Positions 618 to 37,911 of a stretch of DNA of 43,420 nucleotides are shown piece by piece. The translations under genes were made by a program, and so were the position numbers. This stretch comes from a virus. Location: the IMG/VR virus record IMGVR_UViG_3300046747_000383, positions 1 to 43,420 of that record; one strand, 5' to 3'. The notes beneath the pieces are model-generated. The model did not search any database. It saw only the letters and a list, made by a program, of their open reading frames with translations, and was not told where the DNA came from. Position 1 is the first letter of the stretch; each line of letters opens with the position of its first letter.

Positions 618-1712
618 ATGGATACAAAATTTAGGATTCACCTGCTGGCGATGCCGAATGCGCCAGTGAGTAAAAAATATTCCCTCGACGGATTTGCTCA
701 GGCGACGTTGAGGTTCTCGCATATGATGAAGTCTATGGGCCATACTGTTTTCCTCTATGGTGCGGAAAATAGCGATGCATCGTGGTGCGATGAACTTATT
801 CCCATTATCTCAGAAGAGGAGCGCACTACGCTACTTGAGTCCTTTTCAGGACGTGCAAACACCGCCACGGAATACCAACACGCTTGGATTGACGAGCGGT
901 CTCCATTGTGGCAACTGAGTAATCCTCGTATGATTCGGGAGATAGGTTTGCGCAAACAACCGCGAGATTTTATCTGTCAAATTGGTGGCGCATCTCAGGA
1001 GACGGTTAGTCTCGCACATCCAGAATTGATGACAGTAGAATACTCTATCGGATATGAGGGAAGCTTTGGGGCCTACCGGGTTTTTGAGAGCAACATTTGG
1101 AGGCATTGGACTTATGGATACCAAAAAATAAGTGAGGGACGATTTTTCGACACCGTGATTCCAGTTTTTTTCGACCCGGCAGAGTTCGAGTTTAGAGAAA
1201 AGAAGGAGCCATTTGCGCTTTATTTAGGACGACTCACTCCTAAAAAAGGAGTTGAAGTAGCTATTCAATCCGCGAAACTCGCGGGATTGCCACTCAAAAT
1301 AATTGGCCACGACCGGGAAAAGGATTTAGTCCCGCGTGGGGTTGAGTTCCTTGGAGCACTTCCACAGGCGGAACGAAATAATTATCTAAGCCGCGCTAGT
1401 GTGGTGCTTTGCCCTACATTATATGTTGAGCCTTTTTGCTGCGTCAGTGTGGAAGCTCAGATGTGCGGCACTCCGGTAGTTAGCACTGATTGGGGCGGTT
1501 TTACAGAGAATGTGGAGCATGGCAAAACCGGGTTCCACTGCAATTATTTGGGAGGATTTGTGGATGGTATCAAAAAGTCCCTCGAACTCGACAAAGCGTA
1601 TATCCGAGCACGCGCGGAAAGACTGTATTCGATGCACAACATTAATCACGATTACCAGCGATATTTCGAGCGATTGAGCACACTTTGGGGTGACGGATGG
1701 AACACTATTTAA
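618..1712 (+). CDS. GT4-type glycosyltransferase
   Basis: A 364-residue protein with the C-terminal nucleotide-sugar-binding Rossmann half of the GT-B fold. It shows YLGRLTPKKGVEVAI near residues 196-210, LPLKIIGHD, then the E-x7-E signature in EPFCCVSVEAQMCGTPVV near residues 271-288, followed by a WGGFTENVEHGKTG segment. These are hallmarks of GT4 (glycosyltransferase group 1) retaining enzymes that move sugar from NDP-sugar donors. The N-terminal half is less typical, as expected for the acceptor domain. It lies inside the virion block, so it may decorate a virion protein or alter host surface glycans to block superinfection. Acceptor and donor cannot be read from the sequence. There is no clear Shine-Dalgarno before the start. 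Confidence 0.85.
   Translation: MDTKFRIHLLAMPNAPVSKKYSLDGFAQATLRFSHMMKSMGHTVFLYGAENSDASWCDELIPIISEEERTTLLESFSGRANTATEYQHAWIDERSPLWQLSNPRMIREIGLRKQPRDFICQIGGASQETVSLAHPELMTVEYSIGYEGSFGAYRVFESNIWRHWTYGYQKISEGRFFDTVIPVFFDPAEFEFREKKEPFALYLGRLTPKKGVEVAIQSAKLAGLPLKIIGHDREKDLVPRGVEFLGALPQAERNNYLSRASVVLCPTLYVEPFCCVSVEAQMCGTPVVSTDWGGFTENVEHGKTGFHCNYLGGFVDGIKKSLELDKAYIRARAERLYSMHNINHDYQRYFERLSTLWGDGWNTI
1701..1711 (+). promoter_or_regulatory. Junction element AACACTATTTA before the GTG start at 1714
   Basis: AACACTATTTA overlaps the last codons and stop of the glycosyltransferase (AAC ACT ATT TAA) and ends 2 nt before the GTG of the next gene. It matches the element at 10221, 14670 and 22300. Read as a -10 box (TATTTA) it would start transcription a few bases inside the GTG. 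Coding constraint alone could explain this copy, so it is weaker than the others. Confidence 0.4.
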
Positions 1713-1713
1713 T

Positions 1714-1872
1714 GTGAAAACAAACCGCAAGCGATGCGGCCAACCCGTAATTAAGGGCAAAGCCGCAGAAGACCTGAGCCAACCGGACCAGTGCAAACGC
1801 GCCACGGGTGGGGACATGACGGCAAAACCACCTCCGTCTATAAAACTGGTGGTCCGAAACTGTGACTGTTAA
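1714..1872 (+). CDS. Small cysteine-containing protein (52 aa)
   Basis: A frame open from GTG 1714 to TAA 1870-1872 fills the gap between the glycosyltransferase and the next gene. An in-frame ATG at 1690 exists but lies inside the glycosyltransferase. The product is basic and Pro-rich, with four cysteines (RCGQPV near the N-terminus, QCKR, and a C-terminal RNCDC). The opening RCGQPVIKGK resembles the start of small phage zinc-binding proteins of the C-x-x-P...C type, but the expected His residues are missing. Function is unknown. The absence of a Shine-Dalgarno and the preceding ACACTATTTA element are the only expression clues. Confidence 0.45.
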   Translation: MKTNRKRCGQPVIKGKAAEDLSQPDQCKRATGGDMTAKPPPSIKLVVRNCDC

Positions 1873-1876
1873 TAAT

Positions 1877-2236
1877 ATGGACAAAGAAATCTCACTAGCA
1901 ATGGACGAACTATCCGGGGTGTCCGTCCCTACTCTGGCAGAACCCAAAGACCGTGAGCCGGATTATCCGTCTTTTCACTATGACGGAGAAAAGGAACTTG
2001 ACCTTCCCGACGAAGGGGAGATGACAATTCGATTTCGCAAAGTTAGCGAAACCAGTTCTGTTAATAAGCAGGGTGAGCACCGATACGCCTGCACGATTGA
2101 GGTGCAAGCAATTTGCGACGTGGAGGGAGAAGAGGAACCTGACGAGATGTACTCCGACAAGGCCAAAGGGACCGAAGATGCACTCGACGCACTCAAAGAA
2201 ATGATGGAAAAACATTTGGCGGAGGAATCCGAGTGA
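1877..2236 (+). CDS. Acidic hypothetical protein (119 aa)
   Basis: The start is taken as ATG 1877 (MDKEISLAMDEL); an in-frame ATG at 1862 would overlap the previous gene. The protein is strongly acidic, with a central beta-like stretch (GEMTIRFRKVSETSS... HRYACTIEVQAICDV) and a C-terminal helix (GTEDALDALKEMMEKHLAEESE). The stop overlaps the next GTG as GTGA, so translation of the next gene is probably coupled. Its place directly before the gatekeeper-like and nozzle-like genes suggests a small virion or assembly protein. I do not recognise a family. Confidence 0.7.
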   Translation: MDKEISLAMDELSGVSVPTLAEPKDREPDYPSFHYDGEKELDLPDEGEMTIRFRKVSETSSVNKQGEHRYACTIEVQAICDVEGEEEPDEMYSDKAKGTEDALDALKEMMEKHLAEESE

Positions 2237-3255
2237 TTCAAGTCCTCGACATTTTTGATGAATCCAAGAAGATAATTGGCGAGTGCAATTCGGTCAAGTT
2301 CTTCCGTTGGGTAGGCGATGCTGTTAGCATCGTGGCGAATAAAATGGACCCGGAGGGTCTAAAGGGATATTTGGATATTTGCACTCTTGGCTGCAATTGT
2401 AACGGCTCTGGACTTTGCAACAATAATGGAACAATTAACGGAAGCCGCTGTTGTGGACGTGCCTGTGTGGCGCTTCCTCGTGAGGTTGGAAATATTCTTG
2501 CGGTGAACATCGGAGGGCAACCTACGCTTGGATTTGGTCAGACGTTTTCCTTCCACATCAACGGACCCGGCGATTGTAAACAATCGTGCGAATGGTCGTG
2601 GTTTGACCAAGGGGGTTTCCATTCTACTTATCGCGACCTCACGTCTCCCTCAAAAATCGTGGCGTATTTACAGAGCGAAGAAGACAACGGAAAACGACTT
2701 GTCGTTTATGGTTACGACGATAAAGGACAAGTGCTTAGGCGACAAGAGAACGGCGTGTGGATAAACGGCTATGCCGTCCCGACCATCTTTGGTTACGCGA
2801 TTCCCGAAGTAGATGCCCCGCTTATCGCGCGAATTACTGCGGTGGATAAAGAACCCACTGTAGGTAATGTTCGCCTCAGTACTATAGATGACTCCGGCTC
2901 TACCGGGGTGCTTCTCGGAGTGTATGAACCGGACGAAACGCTTCCACAGTTTCGGCGTATTAAATTAGGGCGCGCGTGCAATTGGGTGCGCATCGCGTTC
3001 CGCCGTAAACTACCTACTTTTTCCAGCATGTTCGACCACATTCCGATGTCTTCTCGCGTAGCATTCTTGTTAGCACTAACAGCCCGCAAGCGCTACAGTG
3101 AATACCAGCTTGGGGATGCGCATGCTTTCGAGGCTGATGCAGTGCGACTTGAGGTTGAAGCACAGCAAGCGATTGAGCCGCCCACTTACGACCCGATGCA
3201 AGTCGTCTCAAGAGAACAGAGTTTAAGAGATGCTTCCGATTATGACATTCGCTAG
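2233..3255 (+). CDS. Putative tail gatekeeper/adaptor protein
   Basis: A 340-residue protein starting at GTG 2233, preceded by a good ribosome binding site (GGAGGA) and overlapping the upstream stop by 4 nt. Residues ~49-85 hold a striking cysteine cluster (CTLGCNCNGSGLC... RCCGRAC), and CKQSC occurs later. The middle looks beta-rich, and the C-terminus from ~260 is helical (PTFSSMFDHIPMSSRVAFLLALTARKR... AFEADAVRLEVEAQQA). A helical segment of this kind plus a following nozzle-like gene mimics the T7 order gp11 then gp12, so a head-tail gatekeeper role is inferred. The Cys cluster could bind metal or form disulfides in the particle; it is not a feature of T7 gp11. Confidence that this is a real gene is high, but the role is moderate to low. 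Confidence 0.6.
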   Translation: MIQVLDIFDESKKIIGECNSVKFFRWVGDAVSIVANKMDPEGLKGYLDICTLGCNCNGSGLCNNNGTINGSRCCGRACVALPREVGNILAVNIGGQPTLGFGQTFSFHINGPGDCKQSCEWSWFDQGGFHSTYRDLTSPSKIVAYLQSEEDNGKRLVVYGYDDKGQVLRRQENGVWINGYAVPTIFGYAIPEVDAPLIARITAVDKEPTVGNVRLSTIDDSGSTGVLLGVYEPDETLPQFRRIKLGRACNWVRIAFRRKLPTFSSMFDHIPMSSRVAFLLALTARKRYSEYQLGDAHAFEADAVRLEVEAQQAIEPPTYDPMQVVSREQSLRDASDYDIR

Positions 3256-3354
3256 AAAGTTTACTCTTTTTTTTGCTTGGACCCTTATCAAAATGGGAAG
3301 AAAAGATAGAAAGTTTACTCTTTTTTTTGCTTGGACCCTTATCAAAATGGGAAG
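3253..3354 (+). repeat. Tandem direct duplication, 48-bp unit, period 54
   Basis: The 48-base unit beginning TAGAAAGTTTACTC and ending ATCAAAATGGGAAG occurs at 3253-3300 and again, identically, at 3307-3354, separated by AAAAGA. The first copy begins at the stop codon (TAG) of the upstream gene. Each copy contains a run of eight T. The period of 54 is a multiple of three, so the reading frame of the HNH remnant stays open through both copies. It looks like a recent slippage or recombination event at a deletion scar. Confidence 0.9.
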
Positions 3355-3460
3355 TTTTGATTTATCCGACCCGGAACAGCAAAGGCTATGCTTTAATTTT
3401 TCCAATTTGCAACCTCTCTGGGAACATGAAAATTTAAGTAAAGGGGCACGCTATGCCTGA
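3292..3460 (+). pseudogene. Internally deleted HNH homing endonuclease remnant
   Basis: A 55-codon frame starts at ATG 3292 (MGRKDRKFTL...) and runs to TGA 3458-3460. From about 3349 it encodes SFDLSDPEQQRLCFNFSN then LQPLWEHENLSKGAR. This aligns closely with the C-terminus of the intact HNH protein at 12312-12872 (SFNMLDPEQQKQCFHFSN then QQPLWDSENLKKSS). The HNH catalytic core that should precede it is absent, and the N-terminal residues derive from the duplicated repeat. The remnant overlaps the next gene's start by 8 nt, as the intact HNH overlaps its own neighbour. Its codons for SKGAR (AAAGGGGCACGC) hold the probable ribosome binding site of the gene at 3453, which may be why this piece survives. 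Confidence 0.75.
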
Positions 3461-10220: not shown

Positions 10221-10235
10221 CACACTATTTATAGG
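10221..10235 (+). promoter_or_regulatory. Junction element CACACTATTTATAGG before start at 10237
   Basis: CACACTATTTATAGG occupies most of the 20-bp gap after the stop of the fibre gene and ends one base before ATG 10237. TATTTA at 10226-10231 lies 5 nt from the start codon. There is no Shine-Dalgarno, so a -10-like box producing a leaderless transcript is the simplest reading. It is nearly identical to the element at 14670-14684. Confidence 0.55.
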
Positions 10236-10236: not shown

Positions 10237-10677
10237 ATGTCAACACCGCACGAATTAACCGCCCCGCAGTTTACCGAGAGATTACTGCCGATTTTCCTGA
10301 GCGTGGCGGAGCGCCTCAACGCTACGGGCAAATACCCTGTGCAACCCAATCCGGCCCACTTTTTTCCGCAGTGGCGGCGGCTTATGGAACTCGGGGTAGC
10401 GCGCACATGGGAGATTCCGGGTGCCGTGCTTGGTGCTCTTTTCGTTCCAAACCTTTTTACGGGTGAAGCCGAGGCATTAGTATGTTTTTGGTTTGCATTG
10501 CCGAATACCCGAGGGACCCTTGAACTCATGGATTTCGCGGAACACGCTGCGCGCGATGCTGGGTGCGTGCGTCTCAAATCTGCGGCTTTCGGTGTGCTAC
10601 GCGGCGATGCAATGGAACGTCTATACCAATCACTTGACTTTGTTCCGGTTGAGACAGGATTTTCTAAAACTTTATGA
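10237..10677 (+). CDS. GNAT-fold protein, gp13-like internal virion protein
   Basis: A 146-residue protein with an acetyltransferase-type arrangement: a helical N-terminus (FTERLLPIFLSVAERLNATG), a central beta segment (GAVLGALFVPN... EALVCFWFALP), a helix (LELMDFAEHAARDAGCVRL) and a GNAT-like C-terminal signature, MERLYQSLDFVPVETGFSK. GNAT-like small proteins precede the gp14-gp15-gp16 ejection proteins in many T7-like phages, where gp13 is needed for internal core assembly. Size and order match here. Whether acetyl-CoA is still bound is uncertain, because the canonical R/Q-x-x-G-x-G/A loop is not obvious. The stop overlaps the next ATG as ATGA. Confidence 0.6.
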   Translation: MSTPHELTAPQFTERLLPIFLSVAERLNATGKYPVQPNPAHFFPQWRRLMELGVARTWEIPGAVLGALFVPNLFTGEAEALVCFWFALPNTRGTLELMDFAEHAARDAGCVRLKSAAFGVLRGDAMERLYQSLDFVPVETGFSKTL

Positions 10678-12310: not shown

Positions 12311-12311
12311 G

Positions 12312-14332: not shown

Positions 14333-14672
14333 TGTCTTTGTGTATATCTCTCGCCAGCCCCATAATTGCGTGGCGAATGAGCCACACGACAAATATCATG
14401 GAAATGACTGGCCACGCCCAAAAAGCAATCGCCACAATGAATCCCACAATATTTTCGAGGGGCAACCAGTGCCAAAGAGCGTTTAAACATTGCCAACCCA
14501 ATACGCACCCAATGAAAACAGGACATAAATACCACAAGGACGCGATGGCAATTGCTACTGATTTTTGCGTCCCCGAAAGGGTGGTTTGTGGCGGTGGGGT
14601 GGGAGTTCGGGGCTGGATTTGCATTACCCCGATTGGCCATTCACTTTTGTAATTCATACCAGAACATAGCAC
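14292..14672 (-). CDS. Two-helix membrane protein, holin candidate
   Basis: A 126-residue minus-strand protein, isolated in a block of plus-strand genes. It has a Pro/Thr-rich N-terminus, then two strong hydrophobic, Trp-rich segments: SVAIAIASLWYLCPVFIGCV near 38-57 and IVGFIVAIAFWAWPVISMIF near 75-94, followed by VVWLI. The C-terminus is polar. The opposite-strand frames lack such organisation, so this is the coding strand. Small two-helix proteins in phages are often holins or antiholins, but no lysis enzyme is adjacent, so the role is inferred. The start is taken as GTG 14672, directly after TATAAATAGT; ATG 14657 and ATG 14624 are alternatives. The 3' end overlaps the 490-residue gene by 41 bp antisense. 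Confidence 0.6.
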   Translation of the reverse strand: MLCSGMNYKSEWPIGVMQIQPRTPTPPPQTTLSGTQKSVAIAIASLWYLCPVFIGCVLGWQCLNALWHWLPLENIVGFIVAIAFWAWPVISMIFVVWLIRHAIMGLARDIHKDIISTNSTSSPRQH

Positions 14673-14684
14673 ACTATTTATAGT
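14670..14684. promoter_or_regulatory. Bidirectional dyad element between divergent starts
   Basis: Plus strand reads CACACTATTTATAGT then ATG 14685; minus strand reads ACTATAAATAGT then GTG 14672. The 12 bp between the two start codons (14673-14684) are the inverted repeat ACTAT-TT-ATAGT. TATTTA lies 4 nt before the plus ATG, and TATAAA lies 4 nt before the minus GTG. Neither gene has a Shine-Dalgarno. A bidirectional -10-type promoter with leaderless transcripts on both sides is the most economical reading. Confidence 0.55.
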
Positions 14685-17600
14685 ATGCCAGAGAATTTTA
14701 ACTTTTTACCGGGTGAGACCCAATCTCCCGGAACGCAGTTGCTCGGGGAAGTGGCACGAGATAAGCTTACGGCGGCTGGCGTAGATTTACGTCCCCCGCC
14801 AACACCGGAAGACATTGCGGCCTCTACCCCTAGTTATGCGGATACTCCTCCGAGTGCTGAGGATATTGCGGCATCTACACCAGTCACAGATTTCCGGGAT
14901 ACACCGCCCAGCCCAGAGGAGGTAAAAGCTTCTGAGAAGTTTTTCTCTGCGGACGATGTGAAGCGCACTGCTGTTTCGGAACTGATGCGGGACAAAGAAT
15001 TTTCGCCAGTGGCTTTTGCTATCCAAAATCCAGATGCACTAGCTGACCCGAAAGTAATGGACAACTTACGGGAAGTTGTCCGCTACCATAAAATTCAGGG
15101 TGTAACTGGTGCCGATGTAGTGGAAGGGCTTACACAAATTCCACACGCGATTGGCTGGCTAGCTAAAGCGGCCCTAGCGCGGGCGGAAAATTTTTGGGAT
15201 ATGACGCCGGGTCCGGGGCCAAGGACTGACACAAGTAAAAAAGCTCAGGGCGAAACTGCCGCCGCTATGGAGTCCGCCGCTTTTGGTGTGGGAACTATGG
15301 CCCGAGGTGCGGCGCAAAAATGGCTTCACGCCAATCCCATTGGGCGACTCACTGGGGGCAACGCACAAGCATTATGGGAAAATCTACCTCCGGGAGAAAT
15401 TGATAAAGAATTTTTCCACGACATAGCCACCGCAAAGCAAGCTTCCATTATATCTACAGGTCACGGAGAATTGAGCAAAGCCAGCACAACGGAATTAGAA
15501 AAACAAGGAATTTACCTAGACCCGCAAAAAGTTGAGTTGTTATCTTTAACTGACCCGCTTGCATTTGCGGCTTTTGGCGAAGGCTTCCGAATTATCAATG
15601 CCGCTACAGGAGCGGTGCTGGGTACAGCGGCTACGTTACCATTAGCTCAGGCTGCGGCTCGTGCAATTCGACCGGGCGCTGAAGCACTCAAAAAAGGTGG
15701 TGAAGTAATTTCTCAGGGAACCCGAAACTTTTCAGAAGGCGCTGTTAAACAGTTACTAGGGCAAAGTGCCCGGGCGGGGGGCGCTATAACATCGGCAGCA
15801 GGTAAGGCCGTGGGTCATGCTGGACCAACTGCTGCCGTAGTCGAACTTGCGCAAGGGGAAATGGGCAAAGCAGCGATGGCTCTCGGTGGTTCAATTGCGG
15901 GTCCTCTTCTTAAAAAAGGCGGAGAGGCGTTATCCGCTACAGGTCGAAACATTCTTGCGGGCGGTTCGGAATTGCCCCGACGTATAGTGGACCTTGGTTC
16001 TGCGGGAGCTACGGCGTTGGCAGACATCGGTAAAGGAGCCACGATTGGGACCGGAATAGCTGGCGTCACTTCGGAATCTCCTGAAGAGACTAAAGGACTT
16101 GTTTCTTATGGCGGAGCGTTTGCAGTCGCTCCCGGGGTCAAAGGGGCTTTGAGTAAAGTAGTCTCCGGCGAGATGGTAACGCCTCGCGGAGAGTTCGCAC
16201 CCCGAGTATCGCTCTCTTACGGAGAAAATCCGGCGCTAGATAAAGTAACCGCAGACACACTCAAATCAATGCCAGAAGAAAAGGCGAGTGCAATAAATTT
16301 CGCTCGTGAGCTTGGTCGAAAGTTTGGGGCGCGTATTTATGCATACTCTACACCGGAACAAGGGGCGCAAATAATTGCAGATGCTTATGCTAAATCGGGA
16401 AGACCTATGTCTGCCGACGAAGTTGAACATGCTTCGAGGCAGAATGGATTCACTGTTGACCTGAGAGGACCGGATGGTAAACCTCAACCGGTGATATTCC
16501 TTAATGGGGGTTCTACGGCAGTCGGAGAAGAGATGGGGCATGTCCTCGAAAGAATACTGCCCCCAGAGTTCAATCAAAAAATGGACGCTGCTACGCGCGC
16601 TCAATTTTCAGATGAACAGTGGGACCAAATAGGCAAAGACTATACTCAACATTTGGAAGGCCGGAAACTGACCCCCGAAGAAAATTGGAGGGATGTGTTG
16701 TCAAAAAGGGCTGGGACAAGTTCCCCGGATACCTACATGATGCGCGAAAATAGGGCCGCTAATTTTGACACTCTGTTTCAGAACCGAGGGGCTGAAATCG
16801 GGACGCCTGAAGATTTATATCGCCGCATTGTGGGCGCAATTGGACGCAGCGCCGAGGCCACAGGTGTTCCTTTAGTGGAAGGCAAGGACGCATACGGTAG
16901 GCCGCTATCGCTTCGGTCAATGAAATCTAGTGAAAAAGCTTTATCGGAGGTTGCAGGTCCCGAGACCGTAGAACCTATTTCAAAAACAGCAAAACCAGAT
17001 ATTCTCAACAAAGCAAACGAATGGCTGAATACCAAATCAACAGCAGAACCGGAACAGACTCAGGCCGCGCGCGACATACTTAGCGCTACGCAAGCGGGGA
17101 GAGGTATTCGAGTGCTCTATTGGGACGCTCCAACTAAAGTAGGCACAGGGGGCCAAGTGACTAGCGTGCGACCGGAGCGACGTGCTGAAATTGAAAAGGC
17201 GCGAGGTGACGAGAACAAAGACCGGCAATTGGTAGAAAAAGAATTTTTCCCCTATCGCGTTGACATAACTAGCAAAGGTCCTCAATTCGTGGGCTGGTCC
17301 CCGGATAACCTCGATGCGAATATTGAAAAGTATGCTGAATGGCACGCGCAAATGATTCGTGAAGGTAAAACTACGCCCACTATCCCCTATGACGTTGATG
17401 CGCAGAGTGGTCGATTCACTGCCGCAGGCCGTGCGCAGCTAATGGCCGACGTTAATACCTTTGTCCGAAATCAAATGTCCGGGTTTACCGGCTCTGGCAA
17501 ACCGATTGTAGTGCCACGAGAAACTGCGGAGCGAGGTTTTTTCACCCCGGAGCAAAAGGGGACGCCTGCACCACTTGACCAGAATCGTGCGGACCTAATT

Positions 17601-20600
17601 AACTACCTTTTTCATGTCCAGATTCCAGAAACGACCACTCGCGTAGCACCGTTGCATATTGCGGGGCAAGAAGTGAGTGCTGCCACTGGGGCAGGCCGTC
17701 TAGTTGAGCCCGTGCGCCCACGTGGACAATATACAAGCGAGCAGTTAGCCAAGGCAGAAATTCCCGAGCCCCGAGGCGTATTAGAGGTAAATCCTTTTCG
17801 TCAGGCCGTGGAACAAGCTGCCGCAGATAGCGGCATAGCGAGACCCAGCCTTATTGATGTGAGCCAACGCCTGAATTTCCCGCGCATCGAAAAGGCGGTC
17901 CCGAGTCTGCGCACCGAACCTTTTGGGGCAAATGTCCTCACACTCAGTGCTGGATTTCAACCAGAGGGCGGGGCAGAGAAGGAATCTATTCGAGACCCCG
18001 CCATTCGCTTGCCGAGCGGACGAGTGGTTACTGCGAATACTCACGAGAACGCTATCCGCAAAGCTGAAGACGCCGGGTTCGACACTTTCTATGACGGCGA
18101 CATGGAGCGAGGTTTTGTTACTAGTCGCGGGAATTTTGTTGACCGTGTTCGGGCTAAAAACATTGCGGTCGATGCCGGACAAGTAAAATCGAGTGCGGAG
18201 CGGTCTCTTGAGTCGTGGAGTTTTTCTAATGCGCGTCAATTTCAACCGGACCCTCTCGGATTTACTTCGACTAAAGGAAAAGAAGTGGGCGAAAAAGAGG
18301 GTCTTTCATTATTTTCCAGTCGCGCGCCTGCACGACAACGACGAGATGGGTCGGTGGGCAAAGCCGGGATTGATTTGGGACTGCGGGACCGCAATGGCGA
18401 CACCGTTGCTGGGATTAGCGCTTACCTAGACCCGGAAACAGATTCTTATGAAATTGGGGCTATCCATGTAGATAAGGGCTATCAGAATAGAGGTATTGGA
18501 GAAGCTCTATATAGAGAATTAGCTAACCGAGTAAAAGGGGAAGCGGATACCCTAACAGGACACATAGTCAACCCAATTGCGGCACAGCTTCGGACTAAAG
18601 TATTTGGGGAGCCAATAGAAGCAAGAACCATAGGCCCGGGAGATGTGCGTACTACATCGAAACTAAATCCAGACGTGCAGTATCAACCGAAGCCCGACGC
18701 AATCGCGGCCCTCAAGCCTGAGGAATTTATGGAGTGGGCTCGCGGGCTCAAGGGGCAAGGGTTTACTCAGGTTGCTTATGACGTGGGCAAGTCCATAGAG
18801 TCCCCGGAACAAGCTGTGTCACTTCGGGACCATTACGATGCCATGCGGGCGGACTCAAGCAAGCTGCTCAAAGAGGGTAACGTTCAGGACGCCATGACGC
18901 GCGCTGCTCAGGCACAGTTCTTCCGAGAGGCATGGGAAGCGGCCACTGGCACCGGGTCTGCGGGAGAGTTTCTAAGAAGGGAGCAACAATTTCAGCCCAG
19001 CGCACGCCCGGATGCCATTCGGTCTGCGGCTATAGTAGATGAAGAAGGTAGAATCTGGACGGGAGCATACCATGGCGATGCCATAGAAAAAATGATGGAC
19101 TCTGGAAAGCCTTATTCTAGCGCCGTGGAACATGGATTTGTGGATAATTCCGGGCGATACTTGAGTCGTGCTGACGCATATAAAAAAGCACTAGAAATTG
19201 GGCAAATTGATAAAACGGAGTATGCCGAACGCGCGGGAACAGAGGCACCATCGCTTGAAACCGATGCTCTTAGAATGGCCCAACAATTCCAACCGGCTCG
19301 CAACGAAGAAGTAAACAAAGTTGCGGAATATTATCTAGGCCACGCTATAGCGCCTGCCGAGCATAAAACTCTCGGTGGGGAGAACGCTAAACGACTCGCA
19401 GACTATTATGAGGCTGCAAGCCACAACCCCAATAATGTAGATGTCCAAAAATCTTATTCCACGTTGGCCAAAGAAACAGAGGCTCAGTATCGAACAATTA
19501 CAGGTGCTGGGTACACCATAGAACCTTTCACTGGCGAGGGCGAGCCATATAAATCATCTGCCGCGCTATTTGACGACATTGAAAATAACAAGCATTTGTT
19601 TTTCTTACCGAGCGACAAAGCAAGTTCCGCAGGAACGGACAATTTAATGATGCGCCCAAGTGGGGTTAGTTTTGATGGAGGGAAAACTCAAGCTCCGGTC
19701 AATGATATTTTTCGAGCAGTGCATGATTTCTTCGGGCACGCTAAGGAACGCTACTCTTTTGGGCCGCAAGGCGAGTTTAATGCGTGGCGCGAACACTCCG
19801 GGATGTATTCCGAAGAGGCGCAAGGGGCTCTCGCAGCCGAAACTCTAGCTCAAAATGCGTGGGTGAATTTTGGTCCACATTTGCGCAGTGTTGAGGGTAA
19901 TATACCAGCCAAAGGAGAATCGGGATATGTCCCCCCGCCTGAGCGACCTTTTGCACCGCAAAAAAATATTGTTGTTCCTGAGGAAACACGGCAATTTCAA
20001 CCCAAAGAAGACTCCGACCTCAAGTTGAATAAACCGAGCGGCGGATTTAGTCGCGCGTGGATACTGCCTAATGGCTCAGTGGTCCAAATTCCGGGGGGAG
20101 AATGGCACCATCAATGGCTGGAAAATAACCCCGAAGTGATGAAGCGCTACGGGATAACTAAACCGGAATCTCCTGAGTGGGCGGAACAAGCCAAAGTCGA
20201 GGCCCTCAAGTCGGGATTCGCGCGCATAAACTACCGGCAGAATTCCGGGACCCTCACCGTGGAAGCACGCGCGCGGGATTGGAAAGGTCTAAAACCAATT
20301 GTGGAAGATGTGGTTGACAAGAACCTGAGTTCCATCGACAATATGGTTGTGCATTTGCTCGATGACTCAGTGGTCCGATTAGTTGACAGCGACAGCGCCA
20401 AGTTTTTCGACATGGACTCGCGGCGCGAAAAAATGGCGAATATCCCCCTCATTACCAAGAGCGAGGCCGGAGTCTCCACGCAAGCTGCTTCAGAGCCCGC
20501 AGCTACTCCGGAGGCGGTGCGCAATTTGGAAACCTATAACCCCAGCGACAAATATTTTAAGGGACAATTCCAGCCTCGCTTGGAGCACCCCGAATTTGAA

Positions 20601-22160
20601 GACCGCCTCAAAGAAGTAATTTCTGGCCAAGCAGGCGGGCACACTTTCAATCCCGATGGTTCGGTCTGGACACAGCCCGAGGGCAAACCCTCAGACATCG
20701 TGACTCTCGCGAGCGTGAACGTTCCAGCGAAAGACGTAACCCGAGAAAACATCCTCAAAGCACTCGGGCCATATTCCGACCTACTCGACGAGCCCGGGAT
20801 TAAGGCTGGCGTATTTTCATTTAGTAAGGGCGGCAAGCCGACCGTGAGTATTGACCTGAACGCCGTGGTGCCGAAGAAGTTTCGCGAGAACTCGAAGGCG
20901 TTTGCTCGGGCGAATGACCAAGTGGCAATTTGGGATGCCGATGCAGGTGAGGATGTTCCGACGGGAGGGAAGGGGGACACCAAGCTGCGCTCACTCGGAG
21001 AAATAACGGATGCGCTACCGAACCTGCTTCGCGGAAAGCCCGTCGATGTGCCGGAGATACTGCGGCAGAACCGAGAAGGTGACGCCGGGGCTGAAATGGA
21101 GTTGCCCGGGTTCGGAAAACGCACCCTGAGTACCAAAGAACTTAGTGGCATGACGAAAAAAGCCATTGCCGATTATTACCCGGAAAGCGTAATCCCCGCA
21201 CGCCGTGACGAGAGTATCCCGAGCGCAATTACGGAATCTCCTCTGTATAAAAAAGCGGGCAGCGAGGCCGCAGCCGTAGATGCTTTTGCCCGTAAGCTAG
21301 TAGAGTTTGCCAAAGAATATCAGGATGACCCTCGATATAAATCCGGTCAGCGATGGTATAGTGAATTCACCCCAATGTTGAAAAAAACTTTTGGTGCTGA
21401 TGCCCCAATTTTCGCGGAGCTACTCGCTTCGACCAGCCCCCAAAATGCGCCGGAGTCGAATTTCGCTTATGCCGTGGATGCCCTCGAAGGTTTCAAGTCC
21501 GGGCGTTTTAATAAAATTGTGGCCAAGTTCAATGAAGGCATGGACAAGCTCAATTCCGGTGCGTGGGAGAAGTCCGCTTCGGAAGGGCAGACCCCCGCAG
21601 CGTGGCTCGAAAATTGGGTAGAAAAAAACGATTTGTGGCCGCGCCAAAGCAACGGGCAGAAGTATGGCATCTCTTCGGGAGGCGTGCTTCAAGTGTTAGC
21701 ACGCCGATGGCTAACTGAGGCTCGCGGGCCGAAGACCCTCAATTTTGTTAAGAACTTACTTGGAACCGGGCATGAGGCCACAATAGATTTGTGGGCGGAC
21801 AGAACCATGCGGCGTCTCGGGTATTCAGGTCTCGTTGACCGTTGGCGGATATTGCCCAAAAACGCAACGGGCGTGAGTGAGGCCGATTTCGCTTTTTCGC
21901 AAAAGGCTTTTCGAGCCGCCGCTAAACAACTCGGGATGCGGGCTGATAGCCTTCAGGGAGCGCTCTGGTTTGCGGAAAAGTCTTTGTGGGCGAACGAGGG
22001 GTGGAGTCGTCTCAATCTCGGGGATTACCGGGCTGAGGTTCCCAAGACCGAAGCTCTGCGGGCCGGAGTGCGGGAACGTATGCTTCGGCAAAAGGCATCG
22101 ACCAAGCCTGCCAAAGCGGAGCAACAAGAATTATTAGTGGAGCCAAGATATGAAAAATAA
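14685..22160 (+). CDS. Giant polyvalent internal virion protein (2491 aa)
   Basis: This very large protein replaces the gp16-type ejection protein. The N-terminus holds degenerate repeats (PPTPEDIAASTP, PPSAEDIAASTP, PPSPEEVKASE) near residues 37-80. Residues ~300-490 are Ala/Gly-rich and hydrophobic. Near 608-626 is GGSTAVGEEMGHVLERILP, like a zinc-protease HExxHxxE with the first His replaced by Glu. A GNAT-like domain lies near 1240-1310 (IGAIHVDKGYQNRGIGEALY). Two related domains at ~1100-1180 and ~1440-1520 both end in a GFV-x-x-x-G motif and GQ. Residues ~1670-1740 carry FRAVHDFFGHAKERYSFGPQ followed by AWREHSGMYSEEAQ, a conserved phage module with His/Glu spacing suggesting metal binding. 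Residues ~2190-2460 form another conserved module (ASTSPQNAPESN, TGHEATIDLWADRTMRRLGY). Q[FY]QP motifs separate these parts. It is probably ejected with DNA, with its domains acting inside the host. Confidence 0.75.
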   Translation: MPENFNFLPGETQSPGTQLLGEVARDKLTAAGVDLRPPPTPEDIAASTPSYADTPPSAEDIAASTPVTDFRDTPPSPEEVKASEKFFSADDVKRTAVSELMRDKEFSPVAFAIQNPDALADPKVMDNLREVVRYHKIQGVTGADVVEGLTQIPHAIGWLAKAALARAENFWDMTPGPGPRTDTSKKAQGETAAAMESAAFGVGTMARGAAQKWLHANPIGRLTGGNAQALWENLPPGEIDKEFFHDIATAKQASIISTGHGELSKASTTELEKQGIYLDPQKVELLSLTDPLAFAAFGEGFRIINAATGAVLGTAATLPLAQAAARAIRPGAEALKKGGEVISQGTRNFSEGAVKQLLGQSARAGGAITSAAGKAVGHAGPTAAVVELAQGEMGKAAMALGGSIAGPLLKKGGEALSATGRNILAGGSELPRRIVDLGSAGATALADIGKGATIGTGIAGVTSESPEETKGLVSYGGAFAVAPGVKGALSKVVSGEMVTPRGEFAPRVSLSYGENPALDKVTADTLKSMPEEKASAINFARELGRKFGARIYAYSTPEQGAQIIADAYAKSGRPMSADEVEHASRQNGFTVDLRGPDGKPQPVIFLNGGSTAVGEEMGHVLERILPPEFNQKMDAATRAQFSDEQWDQIGKDYTQHLEGRKLTPEENWRDVLSKRAGTSSPDTYMMRENRAANFDTLFQNRGAEIGTPEDLYRRIVGAIGRSAEATGVPLVEGKDAYGRPLSLRSMKSSEKALSEVAGPETVEPISKTAKPDILNKANEWLNTKSTAEPEQTQAARDILSATQAGRGIRVLYWDAPTKVGTGGQVTSVRPERRAEIEKARGDENKDRQLVEKEFFPYRVDITSKGPQFVGWSPDNLDANIEKYAEWHAQMIREGKTTPTIPYDVDAQSGRFTAAGRAQLMADVNTFVRNQMSGFTGSGKPIVVPRETAERGFFTPEQKGTPAPLDQNRADLINYLFHVQIPETTTRVAPLHIAGQEVSAATGAGRLVEPVRPRGQYTSEQLAKAEIPEPRGVLEVNPFRQAVEQAAADSGIARPSLIDVSQRLNFPRIEKAVPSLRTEPFGANVLTLSAGFQPEGGAEKESIRDPAIRLPSGRVVTANTHENAIRKAEDAGFDTFYDGDMERGFVTSRGNFVDRVRAKNIAVDAGQVKSSAERSLESWSFSNARQFQPDPLGFTSTKGKEVGEKEGLSLFSSRAPARQRRDGSVGKAGIDLGLRDRNGDTVAGISAYLDPETDSYEIGAIHVDKGYQNRGIGEALYRELANRVKGEADTLTGHIVNPIAAQLRTKVFGEPIEARTIGPGDVRTTSKLNPDVQYQPKPDAIAALKPEEFMEWARGLKGQGFTQVAYDVGKSIESPEQAVSLRDHYDAMRADSSKLLKEGNVQDAMTRAAQAQFFREAWEAATGTGSAGEFLRREQQFQPSARPDAIRSAAIVDEEGRIWTGAYHGDAIEKMMDSGKPYSSAVEHGFVDNSGRYLSRADAYKKALEIGQIDKTEYAERAGTEAPSLETDALRMAQQFQPARNEEVNKVAEYYLGHAIAPAEHKTLGGENAKRLADYYEAASHNPNNVDVQKSYSTLAKETEAQYRTITGAGYTIEPFTGEGEPYKSSAALFDDIENNKHLFFLPSDKASSAGTDNLMMRPSGVSFDGGKTQAPVNDIFRAVHDFFGHAKERYSFGPQGEFNAWREHSGMYSEEAQGALAAETLAQNAWVNFGPHLRSVEGNIPAKGESGYVPPPERPFAPQKNIVVPEETRQFQPKEDSDLKLNKPSGGFSRAWILPNGSVVQIPGGEWHHQWLENNPEVMKRYGITKPESPEWAEQAKVEALKSGFARINYRQNSGTLTVEARARDWKGLKPIVEDVVDKNLSSIDNMVVHLLDDSVVRLVDSDSAKFFDMDSRREKMANIPLITKSEAGVSTQAASEPAATPEAVRNLETYNPSDKYFKGQFQPRLEHPEFEDRLKEVISGQAGGHTFNPDGSVWTQPEGKPSDIVTLASVNVPAKDVTRENILKALGPYSDLLDEPGIKAGVFSFSKGGKPTVSIDLNAVVPKKFRENSKAFARANDQVAIWDADAGEDVPTGGKGDTKLRSLGEITDALPNLLRGKPVDVPEILRQNREGDAGAEMELPGFGKRTLSTKELSGMTKKAIADYYPESVIPARRDESIPSAITESPLYKKAGSEAAAVDAFARKLVEFAKEYQDDPRYKSGQRWYSEFTPMLKKTFGADAPIFAELLASTSPQNAPESNFAYAVDALEGFKSGRFNKIVAKFNEGMDKLNSGAWEKSASEGQTPAAWLENWVEKNDLWPRQSNGQKYGISSGGVLQVLARRWLTEARGPKTLNFVKNLLGTGHEATIDLWADRTMRRLGYSGLVDRWRILPKNATGVSEADFAFSQKAFRAAAKQLGMRADSLQGALWFAEKSLWANEGWSRLNLGDYRAEVPKTEALRAGVRERMLRQKASTKPAKAEQQELLVEPRYEK

Positions 22161-22314
22161 GATTGATACTGAAGAACTAGCGCAAGCCGCACGAGCCGCC
22201 TATTTCGATGACCAATGGAATGAGTTTTGGTCCGAATTTGAAGCCGCCGCGCAGGGGCGGGAAGACAAAAATAAAGCTCTCGCGGAACCCCGGAACCTAA
22301 ACACTATTTATTGA
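22150..22314 (+). CDS. Small acidic/helical protein (54 aa)
   Basis: ATG 22150 lies inside the end of the giant gene and has a good ribosome binding site (GGAG 7 nt upstream). The frame runs to TGA 22312-22314 and fills the gap before the next gene. The product begins MKNKIDTEELAQAARAAYFD and continues DQWNEFWSEFEAAAQGRED, an amphipathic, aromatic-rich helix. No family is recognised. Its last codons (AAC ACT ATT TAT TGA) are also the ACACTATTTAT element of the following gene. Clean fit between neighbours supports a real gene. Confidence 0.6.
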   Translation: MKNKIDTEELAQAARAAYFDDQWNEFWSEFEAAAQGREDKNKALAEPRNLNTIY

Positions 22315-22315: not shown

Positions 22316-22969
22316 ATGGATAACCTTGTTGAACCAAGAGACGCGAGCGCAACACCGGAAATGGCGACACCAGCGCCCGATATGAGCGCCGCCAATGCCG
22401 CCCAACCGTCAGCTTCAGAGGCACCTCCAAGCCTTCCTGAGACATTACTCAAGATTCCGGCCATTCAGGGGCTTATGGCTGGCACGCCGCCTGCCGTGAG
22501 CGCGCCGATTAAGGAATTTAGCAAGCGGGGGGACGCAAAACTTCTCATTGAGAATAAGGACCTGCTATTACAAGCCGGATTCAATTTATACCGAAGTTTG
22601 AATGGGGAAACCGGAGTACTTTATAACACGCTCCATATTCACGGGGACGCCCTAAAACAGGCCGATGCCGCAGGGCAACTTAGGGCCATTGCCCCATCCT
22701 TTGACGAAATCAACCATAAGCTCGGAAAAGCGGGAGTGCAACATCCGATATTCAATGCACAGGTGCCCGCAGGACCGGTTGCGCCGCCAATTATGACCCC
22801 GCCTCAAGGAAACGCCATGCCGATGCCCGCAGTGAGTGTAGCAAGCACGCCAGCGCCACGCAAGGCGGTTCAGGCCAAGATGGCGAGCCTCGCTCCCACG
22901 GCACCGACTGCGGGTGCGGTGCCGGGGCAAGGTGCCCTCCTCCGGTCCATTTTAAAACCCGTCGTTTAA
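22316..22969 (+). CDS. Pro/Ala-rich putative virion protein (217 aa)
   Basis: The last plus-strand gene. N-terminal ~50 residues are low-complexity Ala/Pro/Ser. Residues ~55-145 look like a compact domain (LLKIPAIQGLMAGTPPAVSA, RGDAKLLIENKDLLLQAGFN, LYNTLHIHGDALKQADAAGQ, PSFDEINHKLGKAGVQHPIF). The C-terminus is again Pro/Ala-rich and ends ALLRSILKPVV. No family is recognised; it may be a minor virion or scaffold-like protein by context. Its TAA (22967-22969) shares the TTTAAA palindrome with the TAA of the convergent minus-strand gene. Confidence 0.6.
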   Translation: MDNLVEPRDASATPEMATPAPDMSAANAAQPSASEAPPSLPETLLKIPAIQGLMAGTPPAVSAPIKEFSKRGDAKLLIENKDLLLQAGFNLYRSLNGETGVLYNTLHIHGDALKQADAAGQLRAIAPSFDEINHKLGKAGVQHPIFNAQVPAGPVAPPIMTPPQGNAMPMPAVSVASTPAPRKAVQAKMASLAPTAPTAGAVPGQGALLRSILKPVV

Positions 22970-22971
22970 AC
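22964..22971. other. GTTTAAAC palindrome holding both convergent stop codons
   Basis: This 8-bp palindrome contains the TAA of the last plus-strand gene (22967-22969) and, on the other strand, the TAA of the first convergent gene (22968-22966). There is no hairpin terminator between the two blocks. Six other GTTTAAAC copies occur at 4871, 14481, 28716, 32455, 34442 and 42497. Confidence 0.85.
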
Positions 22972-25803: not shown

Positions 25804-25817
25804 TACTAGAATAGTGT
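25804..25817 (-). promoter_or_regulatory. Junction element ACACTATTCTAGTA before the resolvase start
   Basis: On the minus strand ACACTATTCTAGTA lies directly before ATG 25803 and includes the TAG stop of the sigma-factor gene. TATTCT is 4 nt from the start codon, and no Shine-Dalgarno is present. It is the minus-strand counterpart of the ACACTATTTAT elements, so it follows the coding strand. Confidence 0.45.
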
Positions 25818-26498
25818 TTTGTTTTTGCTCAGGGCGGAACGCAATTTGCGAATCGCCCGCGTATGTGTATGCTGGACGGCGGTGCGCGTAATCACGGGCA
25901 CCAGCTTGTGCCGTAGCTGCTCAAAAGTAAACCCTCCAATGTAGCTCAGTTCGAGTATCATGCGCTCGCGTTCATTGAGCACCGAGCGCATGAGGGGCTC
26001 AACTACGGCCCAGCGTTCTCGCAAGTCGATAGCCGCGAACTCCGGTTCGACGGGTTCCCCGTTAATTTCAAGAGACCTATCATCGTAGGTTAGAGTTAGT
26101 TCTTCTTCCCGGTCTCCGCTTGTATATATCTCGCGCTTAATCGGATGTAACTCGGTTTCGTGTTTACTAGAATTGCGCACTACGTCCCGGGATTTCCAGA
26201 GCAAGCATATTTCGCCACGCACGTATGGCTTCGCGTAGGCGAAAAATCGAATGCCCCCGGGCTTGAAGTTGCGCGCCGCCTTGCTGAGGGCGAGGTAGCA
26301 CACACTGAGTATTTCGTCTTCAGGCAGTCGGCCTTTGCTAAAGCCCACGCCGTAGCACACCGCCTCGCGCAGGTTGTGCGTTACGAGTTCGTTACGGTCT
26401 TCTTCGCGCTGGTGCTTTTGAATACGAGTCGCGAGGTCCGACTCCTGCCCGGGGGCCATGTCGCCGCGTTCCGGCAGTCCGTTAAGTATTGCACTCAT
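25806..26498 (-). CDS. Phage-encoded sigma-70-family factor
   Basis: A 230-residue protein with recognisable sigma regions 2 and 4. Region 2: LPEDEILSVCYLALSKAARN then FKPGGIRFFAYAKPYVRGEI near residues 58-97, matching the core-binding and -10-recognition helices of group 3 factors. Region 4: LNERERMILELSYIGGFTFE near 180-199, then TAVQHTHTRAIRKLRSAL, the helix-turn-helix for -35 contact. An acidic linker lies between. Phages use such factors to redirect host RNA polymerase, as with T4 gp55 or SPO1 gp28. It lies in the replication operon, so it is presumably made before the virion genes it might switch on. The primase-helicase stop-start overlap is ATGA. Confidence 0.75.
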   Translation of the reverse strand: MSAILNGLPERGDMAPGQESDLATRIQKHQREEDRNELVTHNLREAVCYGVGFSKGRLPEDEILSVCYLALSKAARNFKPGGIRFFAYAKPYVRGEICLLWKSRDVVRNSSKHETELHPIKREIYTSGDREEELTLTYDDRSLEINGEPVEPEFAAIDLRERWAVVEPLMRSVLNERERMILELSYIGGFTFEQLRHKLVPVITRTAVQHTHTRAIRKLRSALSKNKTLF

Positions 26499-30837: not shown

Positions 30838-31323
30838 TTAAAAATTCAAATTAGAAAACTCTTTGTATCTGGCTTTGGCCGCTTGGTCGTATGCTTTTGC
30901 TGCCAATTTCTCTGTAGGAAAATATCCTAAATGCACTCTGGGCCTTCCCCCTATGTAAGCCATCCAAGGGTTTGTTTGATTCAATTGAGGAGTGAAACAC
31001 ACTCCTTTAAATTGGCTTGTCGAACGGTGCTTCCAATATTTTTTCTGATTTCCTCGATTCTGTTTATGCGTGGCCAACCGAAGATTCGAGCGCAAGCAAT
31101 TCAAAGAATTGCAGTCTTTGTGGTCAACTTGAATGCCTTTTGGGGCGTCGAGAATTTCTCTGTGAAGTAAAACCAAGGCACGCCCTTCTTGGGGACCTTT
31201 TCGCCTTGCTGCATAAAATGTCTTTCCACATTTTTGAGCATACCACTTAAAACAACCAAAGCGAATAAAGTCCTCTTCATCCACTTGGACTTGTAACCCT
31301 CTAGTTAACGGAATTAAAGGCAC
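30838..31323 (-). CDS. HNH homing endonuclease with AP2 DNA-binding domain
   Basis: A 161-residue protein. GTG 31323 is chosen because GGAG lies 5 nt upstream; TTG 31338 is an alternative. The HNH core is LHREILDAPKGIQVDHKDCN then LRSNLRLATHKQNRGN near residues 55-97, with DH and the Asn pair. The C-terminus is an AP2/ERF-like module: SQFKGVCFTPQLNQ, WMAYIGGRPRVHLGYFPTEK and AAKAYDQAAKARYKEFSN near 107-160. This HNH-AP2 pair is typical of mobile endonucleases in phages. It overlaps the DruA-like gene upstream by 10 nt and stops 4 nt before the polymerase start. Confidence 0.9.
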   Translation of the reverse strand: MPLIPLTRGLQVQVDEEDFIRFGCFKWYAQKCGKTFYAARRKGPQEGRALVLLHREILDAPKGIQVDHKDCNSLNCLRSNLRLATHKQNRGNQKKYWKHRSTSQFKGVCFTPQLNQTNPWMAYIGGRPRVHLGYFPTEKLAAKAYDQAAKARYKEFSNLNF

Positions 31324-32039
31324 AGGGTCTCCTTCCAATTTTGCACGAGCGGACGAAGGAATATCTTTTTTGGTTCACTCTGCGTTACATGATAATGTTC
31401 ACCTCCGACTGCATATCTGAGTATTGCCGCCTTTGGATTAGAACGGGCGAGGTCTCCCCGGGCCGACTTTTCTTTTTTCCATAGACCCAGAGGCGCTTTA
31501 GAAAAAGAACTCCCTTTTGTCATGCCCACGTAACTCCACCCCGATGCCTGATAAACGGTCCCAGTCCACGGCGGCTTGACCAGCGTTTCGAGTAGGAGTA
31601 GGTCATCGCCATATCGGTTTTTCCATTCTTTGCGCGCGACGACTCCTAGAATGCGTAGGATACGGCTACCGAGATTTTTCTCCTGTCGGCGCACCGCGAA
31701 TCGGTAATTATTGGCGACTTGGTTTAGGTGCTTGCGTCTCGCTGCGCTATCCCAGCCAATAAAAGAATCTCGCACGCCAAGCGCAAGAATTGCGGAGTTA
31801 ACACCTACACCTGCCAACACTTCGCCGGAATCCGAATACACATTCCAATTGAGCCTTCGGTTGCAAGTGTCCTTGTATTTCATGTATGAGTGGTAGCCGT
31901 CAATAGTCTCTCGAAAGGTAACTCGCTCAGCCGGAGACTCACACAAAACAAAATGGAGCGCCGGGGTAGCACTTGAAGCTCCACTATCCCGCTGGAAGGC
32001 GGGCCGTTCTCCGATTAAACTACCGGCGCAAAAATTCAT
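31314..32039 (-). CDS. DUF4338 / DruA-like protein
   Basis: A 241-residue protein matching the DUF4338 pattern from memory: an early YHSYMKYKDTCNRRLNWNVY segment, then VLAGVGVNSAILAL, FIGWDSAARRKHLNQVANNY and RFAVRRQEKNLGSRILRILG. It goes on with WKNRYGDDLLLLETLVKP and WTGTVYQASGWSYVGMTKG. The IGW, NNYRF, LLLETLV and GTVYQASGW blocks are diagnostic of the family that includes DruA of the Druantia defence system. The family's biochemical activity is not known to me. The four other Druantia components are absent. In a phage it could act as an anti-competitor factor or belong to the mobile AP2-HNH pair. It begins at ATG 32039. Confidence 0.7.
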   Translation of the reverse strand: MNFCAGSLIGERPAFQRDSGASSATPALHFVLCESPAERVTFRETIDGYHSYMKYKDTCNRRLNWNVYSDSGEVLAGVGVNSAILALGVRDSFIGWDSAARRKHLNQVANNYRFAVRRQEKNLGSRILRILGVVARKEWKNRYGDDLLLLETLVKPPWTGTVYQASGWSYVGMTKGSSFSKAPLGLWKKEKSARGDLARSNPKAAILRYAVGGEHYHVTQSEPKKIFLRPLVQNWKETLCL

Positions 32040-32683: not shown

Positions 32684-32868
32684 TTGCTTCCTCCTACACT
32701 CAAAAAATCACCGGGCAAATAAGACGCCAGTTTATTCATAATAGCTTCCCCTTTTTTTCGGTGGGTGATACTTGACCGAAAGTGCATACGAGCTTGCTTG
32801 AGCCAATATTTTTTGTCTGGACGAGTCTCGCGGTCAATACTTAAATTTAATGACGACAATGAAATCAT
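32680..32868 (-). CDS. Small basic protein (62 aa)
   Basis: ATG 32868 overlaps the SprT-like stop as ATGA and has a GGAGG ribosome binding site; the TGA overlaps the next GTG. The product begins MISLSSLNLSIDRETRPDKK, then YWLKQARMHFRSSITHRKKG and a hydrophobic end. It is basic and probably helical. No family is recognised. The two stop-start fusions and good ribosome binding site make it a convincing gene. Confidence 0.65.
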   Translation of the reverse strand: MISLSSLNLSIDRETRPDKKYWLKQARMHFRSSITHRKKGEAIMNKLASYLPGDFLSVGGSK

Positions 32869-33497
32869 GCCGCCTCCATTGTTTCGCCGCAAGGGCACGT
32901 AGGCAAACCCACACTCAGCCACTTCTGCGTAGTCCGAACAACGTAGCCACACTCGGGGCACTCACACTTGAGAAGCCGAGTCCCCTGCTTGGAACTTTTG
33001 CTTTCGACGATTCTGCACATGGCATACACATTACGGTCAAATTTGATTTTGTCAAGGAACTGTTTTGCGGGCTCTGCAAGGTCTGTAAACGCGAAGCCGA
33101 GGCTCGGGTCTTTCTTGACTGAAAGTCCAAGGCGTTCCGCCATACTTTTGAATTTCTTGTTATGGCGTCGCCCGGTTTTGTCGGTGTCCTGAATACCGCA
33201 GTGATGGTTTTCCGCGTGCGCCAGTTCGTGCAACAGCGTTTCGCCCATGTTGTGCTCGCGCAAATATTCGGCACTCAGATTGATTTCGTGCAGGAATTCT
33301 TTCTTATCCTTGGATTTCTCGGGACTCCATCGGCTGTGCCAAAACCACCCGAGGGCGTTGCGGCGTCCCTTGCTCTGAATCGTCACGAGTATTCGGGCCG
33401 GGTCAACGCTGAGCCCGAAGTGCTGCACTGCTGCCGCTAGCAGCCGGTTCGATTCCGCAATAACTGGAATTAAGCTTGTGTCTTTCATTCGCTTCAC
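32865..33497 (-). CDS. SprT-like zinc metalloprotease
   Basis: A 210-residue protein. TLLHELAHAENHHCG near residue 88 holds the HExxH site with a nearby third ligand. The C-terminus has a zinc ribbon: LKCECPECGYVVRTTQ and LPTCPCGETM. The whole matches SprT-like proteins, related to the protease part of Spartan, which removes DNA-protein crosslinks. Phage copies are common, but their substrates are unknown. GTG 33497 overlaps the previous stop (GTGA); ATG 33488 is an alternative start. No obvious Shine-Dalgarno precedes either. Confidence 0.85.
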   Translation of the reverse strand: MKRMKDTSLIPVIAESNRLLAAAVQHFGLSVDPARILVTIQSKGRRNALGWFWHSRWSPEKSKDKKEFLHEINLSAEYLREHNMGETLLHELAHAENHHCGIQDTDKTGRRHNKKFKSMAERLGLSVKKDPSLGFAFTDLAEPAKQFLDKIKFDRNVYAMCRIVESKSSKQGTRLLKCECPECGYVVRTTQKWLSVGLPTCPCGETMEAA

Positions 33498-37437: not shown

Positions 37438-37649
37438 CGGCTGTCCCTCCGGGCGAATCGTTGGTAACAATTTCGGTCGGTTCGGATGGGCTCGAAGCGG
37501 GTGATACTGTCTTTTGTGCCGTTGGCACCTTCATTATGGAGAACCACCATGCGCAAATTCTTGGTTTTGCTTTCCGTCTGGACACCCGGCTTGAATGAGC
37601 CGAGTTCTTTATGGGCATGTCTTGCATTTCGTTTTGTATTTTTGTTCAT
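37434..37649 (-). CDS. Small basic protein (71 aa)
   Basis: ATG 37649 has a GGAGGG ribosome binding site 8 nt upstream, and the stop overlaps the nucleotidyltransferase start. The product starts MNKNTKRNARHAHKELGSFK and ends ITRFEPIRTDRNCYQRFARR followed by DSR. It is rich in Arg, Lys and Asn, without predicted hydrophobic core. No family is recognised. Coupling suggests that it works with the nucleotidyltransferase, perhaps as substrate or binding partner. Confidence 0.6.
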   Translation of the reverse strand: MNKNTKRNARHAHKELGSFKPGVQTESKTKNLRMVVLHNEGANGTKDSITRFEPIRTDRNCYQRFARRDSR

Positions 37650-37663
37650 AAAAGTTACCCTCC

Positions 37664-37691
37664 AATATAGCGGGAGAACAGCGCTTGTCAA
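37664..37691 (-). promoter_or_regulatory. Sigma-70-like promoter boxes upstream of 37649
   Basis: Minus-strand TTGACA (37691-37686), a perfect -35, and TATATT (37669-37664), one mismatch, are 16 bp apart. The predicted +1 is near 37657, inside or just past the GGAGGG ribosome binding site. Either the true start lies a few bases earlier or this site is also close to leaderless. Confidence 0.5.
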
Positions 37692-37700
37692 ATGAGTTTT

Positions 37701-37895
37701 TTAGTATTTCTTCATCACTCGTTTCTTCATCTCGTCACGCGCCGGGGCACCCGTGGGTTTCCAGCCGTTTTCTATTCCCCGGAGCAAGCGAACCTGCCTC
37801 TTAGCATTCTCGGGAGTGGAGCCTTTAGACTTTATTCCATTCGGGGAACGGACCTGAACCTTGTTTTTTCCAACTTTTTTTGTGGTATATGGCAT
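37701..37895 (-). CDS. Small conserved phage protein (64 aa)
   Basis: ATG 37895 (MPYTTKKVGKNKVQVRSPNG) follows a CACACTAATAATTGAT junction. The next residues are IKSKGSTPENAKRQVRLLRG then IENGWKPTGAPARDEMKKRV. The K-x-x-V-R-S-P-x-G and AKRQVRLLRxIENGWKPT pieces match a short protein seen in many tailed phages, of unknown function. An in-frame upstream ATG would overlap the helicase gene and is not favoured. It is probably a nucleic-acid-binding accessory, judged by charge. Confidence 0.65.
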   Translation of the reverse strand: MPYTTKKVGKNKVQVRSPNGIKSKGSTPENAKRQVRLLRGIENGWKPTGAPARDEMKKRVMKKY

Positions 37896-37911
37896 ATCAA
37901 TTATTAGTGTG
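37896..37911 (-). promoter_or_regulatory. Junction element CACACTAATAATTGAT
   Basis: Directly before ATG 37895 on the minus strand. It shares CACACTA and the spacing with the ACACTATTTAT elements, but the centre is AATAAT. No Shine-Dalgarno is present. It is a weaker member of the set. Confidence 0.35.

Follow-up and report, generated by a model that had tools for sequence, protein, structure and literature searches.

Phage sigma factors are well known, and in the T4 gp55 and SPO1-type late systems a phage-encoded specificity factor redirects the host RNA polymerase (RNAP) to the late genes. The T4 late promoters consist of TATAAATA without a -35 element, and gp55 is devoid of sigma region 4. 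Promoters whose -10 box lies next to the open reading frame (ORF) have been described in Deinococcus-Thermus, where the box is located ~6-7 bp before the ORF, no Shine-Dalgarno (SD) sequence is present, and a -35 element placed 17 bp upstream raises expression (PMC12340547). The middle and late mRNAs of the Thermus phage phiYS40 are mostly leaderless (PMC3594737), and the middle and late promoters of phage P23-45 belong to the extended -10 class (PMC7403470).

Here we analyse a linear 43.4-kb IMG/VR virus contig, referred to as the window, in which a short element adjoins start codons and a FliA-like sigma factor is encoded. The arrangement resembles that of Deinococcus-Thermus in the -10-to-ORF spacing of 6-7, the absence of an SD and the 17-bp -35 spacing. 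It differs in that the box is NACTRTTWA instead of TANNNT (often TACACT), and in that it occurs in phages, mainly before virion genes, and not before host genes. The likeness to P23-45 is one of transcription pattern: there, host sigmaA is modified by gp39, whereas a phage sigma factor is proposed here. The redirection of host RNAP to late genes by a phage-encoded factor, as proposed here, would be shared with the T4 and SPO1-type late sigma factors; however, the box differs from that of the T4 late promoters, sigma region 4 has been retained, and relatives have a -35-like TTG. Among profiles, FliA/sigma28 (group 3) matches the phage sigma factor best; regions 2 and 4 are present in it, but a low-confidence linker appears to take the place of region 3 and the promoter box is unlike that of FliA. 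A literature search of incomplete coverage found no report combining a phage-encoded sigma factor with leaderless transcripts. The box and its possible link to the sigma factor appear to be new, and the ORF-adjacent leaderless arrangement itself is known.

The element in the window and at orthologous gene starts

The genes of the window lie mostly on the + strand from 0 to 23 kb and on the - strand from 23 kb onward. The - strand encodes DNA polymerase A, a helicase, exonucleases, a RuvC-like protein and the sigma factor; the + strand encodes a conserved 673-aa protein, two related fibre-like genes and a 2491-aa protein. We named the + strand the virion module because the corresponding strand of the relative G002 has tail-fibre, Mtd_N, protease and virion-protein matches. 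No relatives were found with the 2491-aa protein, no relative of the 673-aa protein was present in the cultured-phage collection, and a virion-module protein gave no match in the GTDB genomes. A host search with the DNA polymerase returned a single 3.1-kb contig (L117) of a Verrucomicrobia MAG at 29% identity, which is too weak to name a host. In the 2491-aa protein, the stretch around residues 1235-1286 matches a GNAT acetyltransferase, and a part close to the C-terminus matches DUF7178.

Exact copies of ACACTATTTAT occur three times in the window (Table 1), all adjoining start codons and ending 3-4 nt 5' of the ATG, and the same word read backwards gave 0 matches. With up to two mismatches, this 11-mer is only mildly enriched in the window (16 matches against 7.7 expected; 2 of 100 shuffles reach 16). 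Position is decisive: the initial annotation had proposed a motif search, and ACTRTT proved far commoner before starts than expected, 6 of its 45 window matches lying 2-10 nt before a start codon against 0.21 expected (p ~7e-8). At six window start codons the distance is 4-7 nt, and the interval from box to start codon cannot accommodate an SD at the window's element sites. It should be noted that the ACTRTT core was picked after the relatives had been seen, so that the independent evidence from the relatives weighs more than the p-value for the window.

Table 1. Element sites and associated genes in the window.
Feature	Position	Strand	Remarks
GCACTTTTTA element	606..615	+	Before ATG 618; weaker ACTTTT variant, without an ortholog for comparison
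ACACTATTTAA element	1702..1712	+	One-mismatch copy of ACACTATTTAT, adjoins GTG 1714; box matches, 52-aa ORF doubtful
GACTGTTAAT element	1864..1873	+	Core 1865-1870, 6 nt before ATG 1877; same gene has the element in most relatives
ACACTATTTAT element	10222..10232	+	Core ACTATT 10224-10229, 7 nt to ATG 10237; box at orthologous starts in G001, G002, G004
146-aa virion-module gene	10237..10677	+	Led by element
ACACTATTTAT element	14671..14681	+	Core 14673-14678, 6 nt to ATG 14685; giant genes of L028, L033, L082, L086 and G002 are also preceded by it
2491-aa virion-module protein gene	14685..22160	+	Led by element
ACACTATTTAT element	22301..22311	+	Core 22303-22308, 7 nt to ATG 22316; orthologous starts in G001, G002, G006
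217-aa virion-module gene	22316..22969	+	Led by element
ACACTATTCTA element	25807..25817	-	Before ATG 25803, within last codons of sigma gene; doubtful
FliA-like sigma factor gene	25806..26498	-	Proposed reader of the element; phrog_351 1.4e-15, Sigma70_r4, FliA profile, structure model, conserved in relatives
ACACTAATAAT element	37900..37910	-	Before ATG 37895; weak in window, box upstream of 2/3 orthologs

The initial annotation had placed near-identical elements before 1714, 10237, 14685, 22316 and 25803 (-), weaker ones before 618 and 37895, and had taken TATTTA as their core. The core kept across relatives is instead NACTRTT[TA]A, and the list stands in part: the sites at 10237, 14685 and 22316 are the exact copies and that at 1702 has one mismatch, but the ORF at 1714 and the 25803 site are doubtful. 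No relative of the 52-aa ORF at 1714 was detected in six relative genomes. That list lacked GTGACTGTTAATAatATG at 1862-1879, which is the site conserved for the 1862 gene; the start of this gene is likely better placed at ATG 1877 (MDKEISLAM...). On the - strand, ACTATTctagta precedes ATG 25803 and overlaps the sigma gene at its final codons (..TLF*). The sigma 3' ends of G001 and G002 contain a similar GAACTGTTTA, likewise encoding L-F, and the box is absent from the aligned RuvC starts in 6/6 relatives; the 25803 box may therefore be a coincidence of coding. Of the weaker sites, that before 618 is a variant, and the orthologs of the 37895 gene with a box are those of G006 and G003, in the latter ~30 nt 5' of the ATG.

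Six syntenic relatives were recovered via the sigma factor and the DNA polymerase, and alignment of the 673-aa protein gave 80 further IMG/VR loci, forming 48 clusters once near copies were grouped. A cut-off of 80% nucleotide identity was applied to thin the loci, which are still of shared ancestry, and gene starts were taken from a simple purpose-made caller. The element is found at orthologous starts of relatives with ~30-60% protein identity, in the six syntenic genomes and in many of the 80 further loci. Examples are GCACTGTTTAagtatATG (G001), ACACTGTTTGatatATG (G002) and GACTATTTAaggtATG (G006) for the 1862 gene, ACACTATTTCATG (G004) and GCACTGTTTGataGTG (G002) for the 10237 gene, and ACACTGTTTAgtgtATG (G001) for the 22316 gene. 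Among the orthologs of the 1862 and 10237 genes, many have a version of it, with the clade variants CACTRTTTA and GTAACTRTTAA. EM motif discovery in windows including the start codon recovered the ATG alone, and word counts and positional profiles were used in its place. Within 30 nt 5' of virion-strand starts, motif-free counts gave ACTGTT (~1e-23), CACTGTT (1e-22) and CACTGTTT (1e-19) as the top 6-, 7- and 8-mer; none of the three was among the enriched words on the replication strand, for which the gene sample was far smaller. The -15 to -11 bin of the virion strand holds 29 element matches against 1.3 expected, and 29 of 117 + strand matches to RCACTRTTTA (at most one mismatch) lie at starts, against 1 of 138 for the reversed motif. 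The element has diverged or is unrecognised in G005, L062 and L080, and the sigma factor is nonetheless present in G005 and L080. ACTTCTC-like words, possibly a drifted box, precede some of the same starts in G005 (L020), L053 and L099.

Promoter-like layout and depletion of Shine-Dalgarno sequences

ACTRTT most often lies 6-7 nt from the start codon, within a range of 2 to 22 nt. Among 61 sites selected by ACTRTT and a start codon only, 12 have TTG exactly 18 nt 5' of ACTRTT (17 from NACTRT), against 1.1 expected. Likeness to TTGACA reaches z 6.7-8.4, solely at spacers 17-19, and is still z 5.1 without the two largest ortholog groups; the signal is therefore more than the coding 3' part of a single upstream gene. 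Searched the other way, 16 of 33 TTG-N21-ACTRTT matches are near starts, against 0 of 13 for GTT-N21-ACTRTT. Neither TTG nor a recognisable -35 is seen at the window's own sites, and the window's clade, which is without TTG, has a longer box; extended -10 recognition would fit there. The initial remark that there is little conservation upstream thus describes the window's clade and not the family, in which a -35-like TTG stands at a fixed spacing, and a general dependence of recognition on the short element alone is not supported.

Read as a hexamer, NACTRT leaves a spacer of 17, retains A-11 and T-7, and puts +1 at or near the start codon. Its consensus is not TATAAT or TANNNT, A-11 and T-7 alone fitting. 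Since the -35 spacing is canonical and the -10 is not TANNNT, the element would be of sigma70 type by layout and not a housekeeping promoter.

SD sequences are depleted: where the element lies within 8 nt, a strong SD precedes 1 of 47 genes, versus 77 of 640 other genes. Longer leaders, of 9-16 nt, contain SD-like words in 7 of 19 cases (37%); the figure is 16% for other genes in equivalent windows and 3.2 of 19 for shuffled leaders, so that this is a trend only. The element occupies the SD position, and neighbouring genes often end a few nt upstream, as would be expected if it acted in RNA as a translation-initiation signal within longer transcripts, substituting for the SD or binding a phage translation factor. 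However, a -35-like TTG in the DNA at one fixed upstream spacing is unexpected for such a signal, the distance to the start codon is variable, and a minority of genes have the element, so that we regard this reading as quite improbable. The fixed 18-nt distance of TTG from ACTRTT speaks rather for a promoter of sigma70 type, the start codon being near +1.

A promoter for a T7-like single-subunit phage RNAP was also considered, as we take ACACTAT to resemble the CACTATA part of T7-group promoters. The resemblance is confined to this short core, and such a promoter is at odds with a sigma70-like -35 at 17 nt. Promoters of the T7 type, moreover, give leaders. No RNA_pol matches were obtained in 15 records (the control genomes were also empty) or among 31 G002 proteins, and we judge this origin extremely improbable.

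The phage sigma factor as candidate reader of the box

All 7 focal genomes contain the sigma gene, as do 12 of 14 further records; those lacking it are two contigs of ~44 kb, versus 68-75 kb for the others. Its product scores 23.9 bits with Pfam Sigma70_r4, just below the 24.1 cut-off, and its best profile match, FliA (6pmi, 1.2e-14), extends across both region 2 and region 4. The structure model (mean pLDDT 73) has helical sigma2 and sigma4 parts; residues 106-156 between them are mostly below pLDDT 50, and no clear domain occupies the position of region 3. Foldseek retrieved sigma factors with this model, at low TM-scores and with the relative placement of the two parts uncertain. The retention of sigma4 is consistent with the -35 element.

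As the two co-occur, the phage FliA-like sigma factor is likely to read the box. The reader of the same -10 promoter could also be a host sigma factor, of the housekeeping or an alternative class, or host RNAP aided by a different phage factor; the phage sigma would then serve other genes. Co-occurrence is what ties the phage sigma to the box, a housekeeping sigma would also use the -35-like TTG, and the late transcription of the Thermus phage P23-45 employs host sigmaA together with phage gp39 (PMC7403470). The -10 that is not TANNNT, the limitation of the box mainly to the virion strand and the conservation of the sigma factor across the whole family of these uncultured phages speak against this alternative, which we consider unlikely.

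Taken together, box position, conservation at orthologous starts, SD depletion and the -35-like TTG of the relatives give good support to a -10-like box that is fused to start codons and yields transcripts with no leader or almost none, which we infer to be the best reading, as in the initial annotation, if not at every site listed there. In the mechanism that we propose, the element would serve virion genes as the -10 box in a class of sigma70-type promoters. The layout would comprise a TTGnC-like -35, which several sublineages show clearly, a 17-nt spacer, NACTRT followed by T[TA]A, and a gap before the start codon that is usually 4-6 nt long. The phage sigma factor, on host core RNAP, would start transcription at the start codon or a few nt away; the resulting leaderless or very-short-leader mRNAs would be translated without an SD, and expression would be switched to the virion module, presumably late. 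With spacings of 2-4 nt the start codon would fall on or 5' of a standard +1, which speaks against this mechanism. A promoter class of this kind, giving leaderless or short-leader virion mRNAs and with the phage sigma as its most likely reader, is in our view probable. That the phage's own sigma, acting on TTGnC-N17-NACTRTTWA promoters fused to starts, makes the switch to virion genes also a switch to leaderless translation is a proposal for which we see an even chance.

The box would predict transcription and translation starts across a broad phage group, gene starts could be corrected by the position of the element, and one sigma factor with a short box would offer a simple bench system for asking why a phage would make its virion mRNAs leaderless.

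Replication-strand promoters and other features

The gene at 22966-23460 (-) has a housekeeping-like promoter whose -10 adjoins the ATG (TTGCGC-N16-TATATT-6-ATG), and the G001 ortholog of the gene at 32865-33497 has TTGACA-N16-TATATT-7-ATG. In a strict scan, TTGAC-N16-18-TANNNT lies near starts in 15 of 66 cases, versus 0/46, 3/44 and 7/62 for controls. There is thus a hint that other genes, including early ones, are also nearly leaderless.

Several further features were observed. A homing-endonuclease gene (8541-9188) lies within the virion module, and the ORFs at 3230-3460 and 12117-12872 end in ..QPLWxxENLxK, like the C-terminal ends of HNH homing endonucleases, of which they are perhaps remnants; the former contains the direct repeat RKFTLFFAWTLIKMG. 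The gene at 30838-31338 has three related copies in G002. A tRNA-like ARAGORN call at 31954-32029 (-), with an unclear anticodon and within a coding region, is probably spurious. Finally, GTTTAAAC-type palindromic words are enriched before replication-strand starts of several genomes (e.g., G001 and G003), sometimes inside the promoter spacer, and may constitute an operator.
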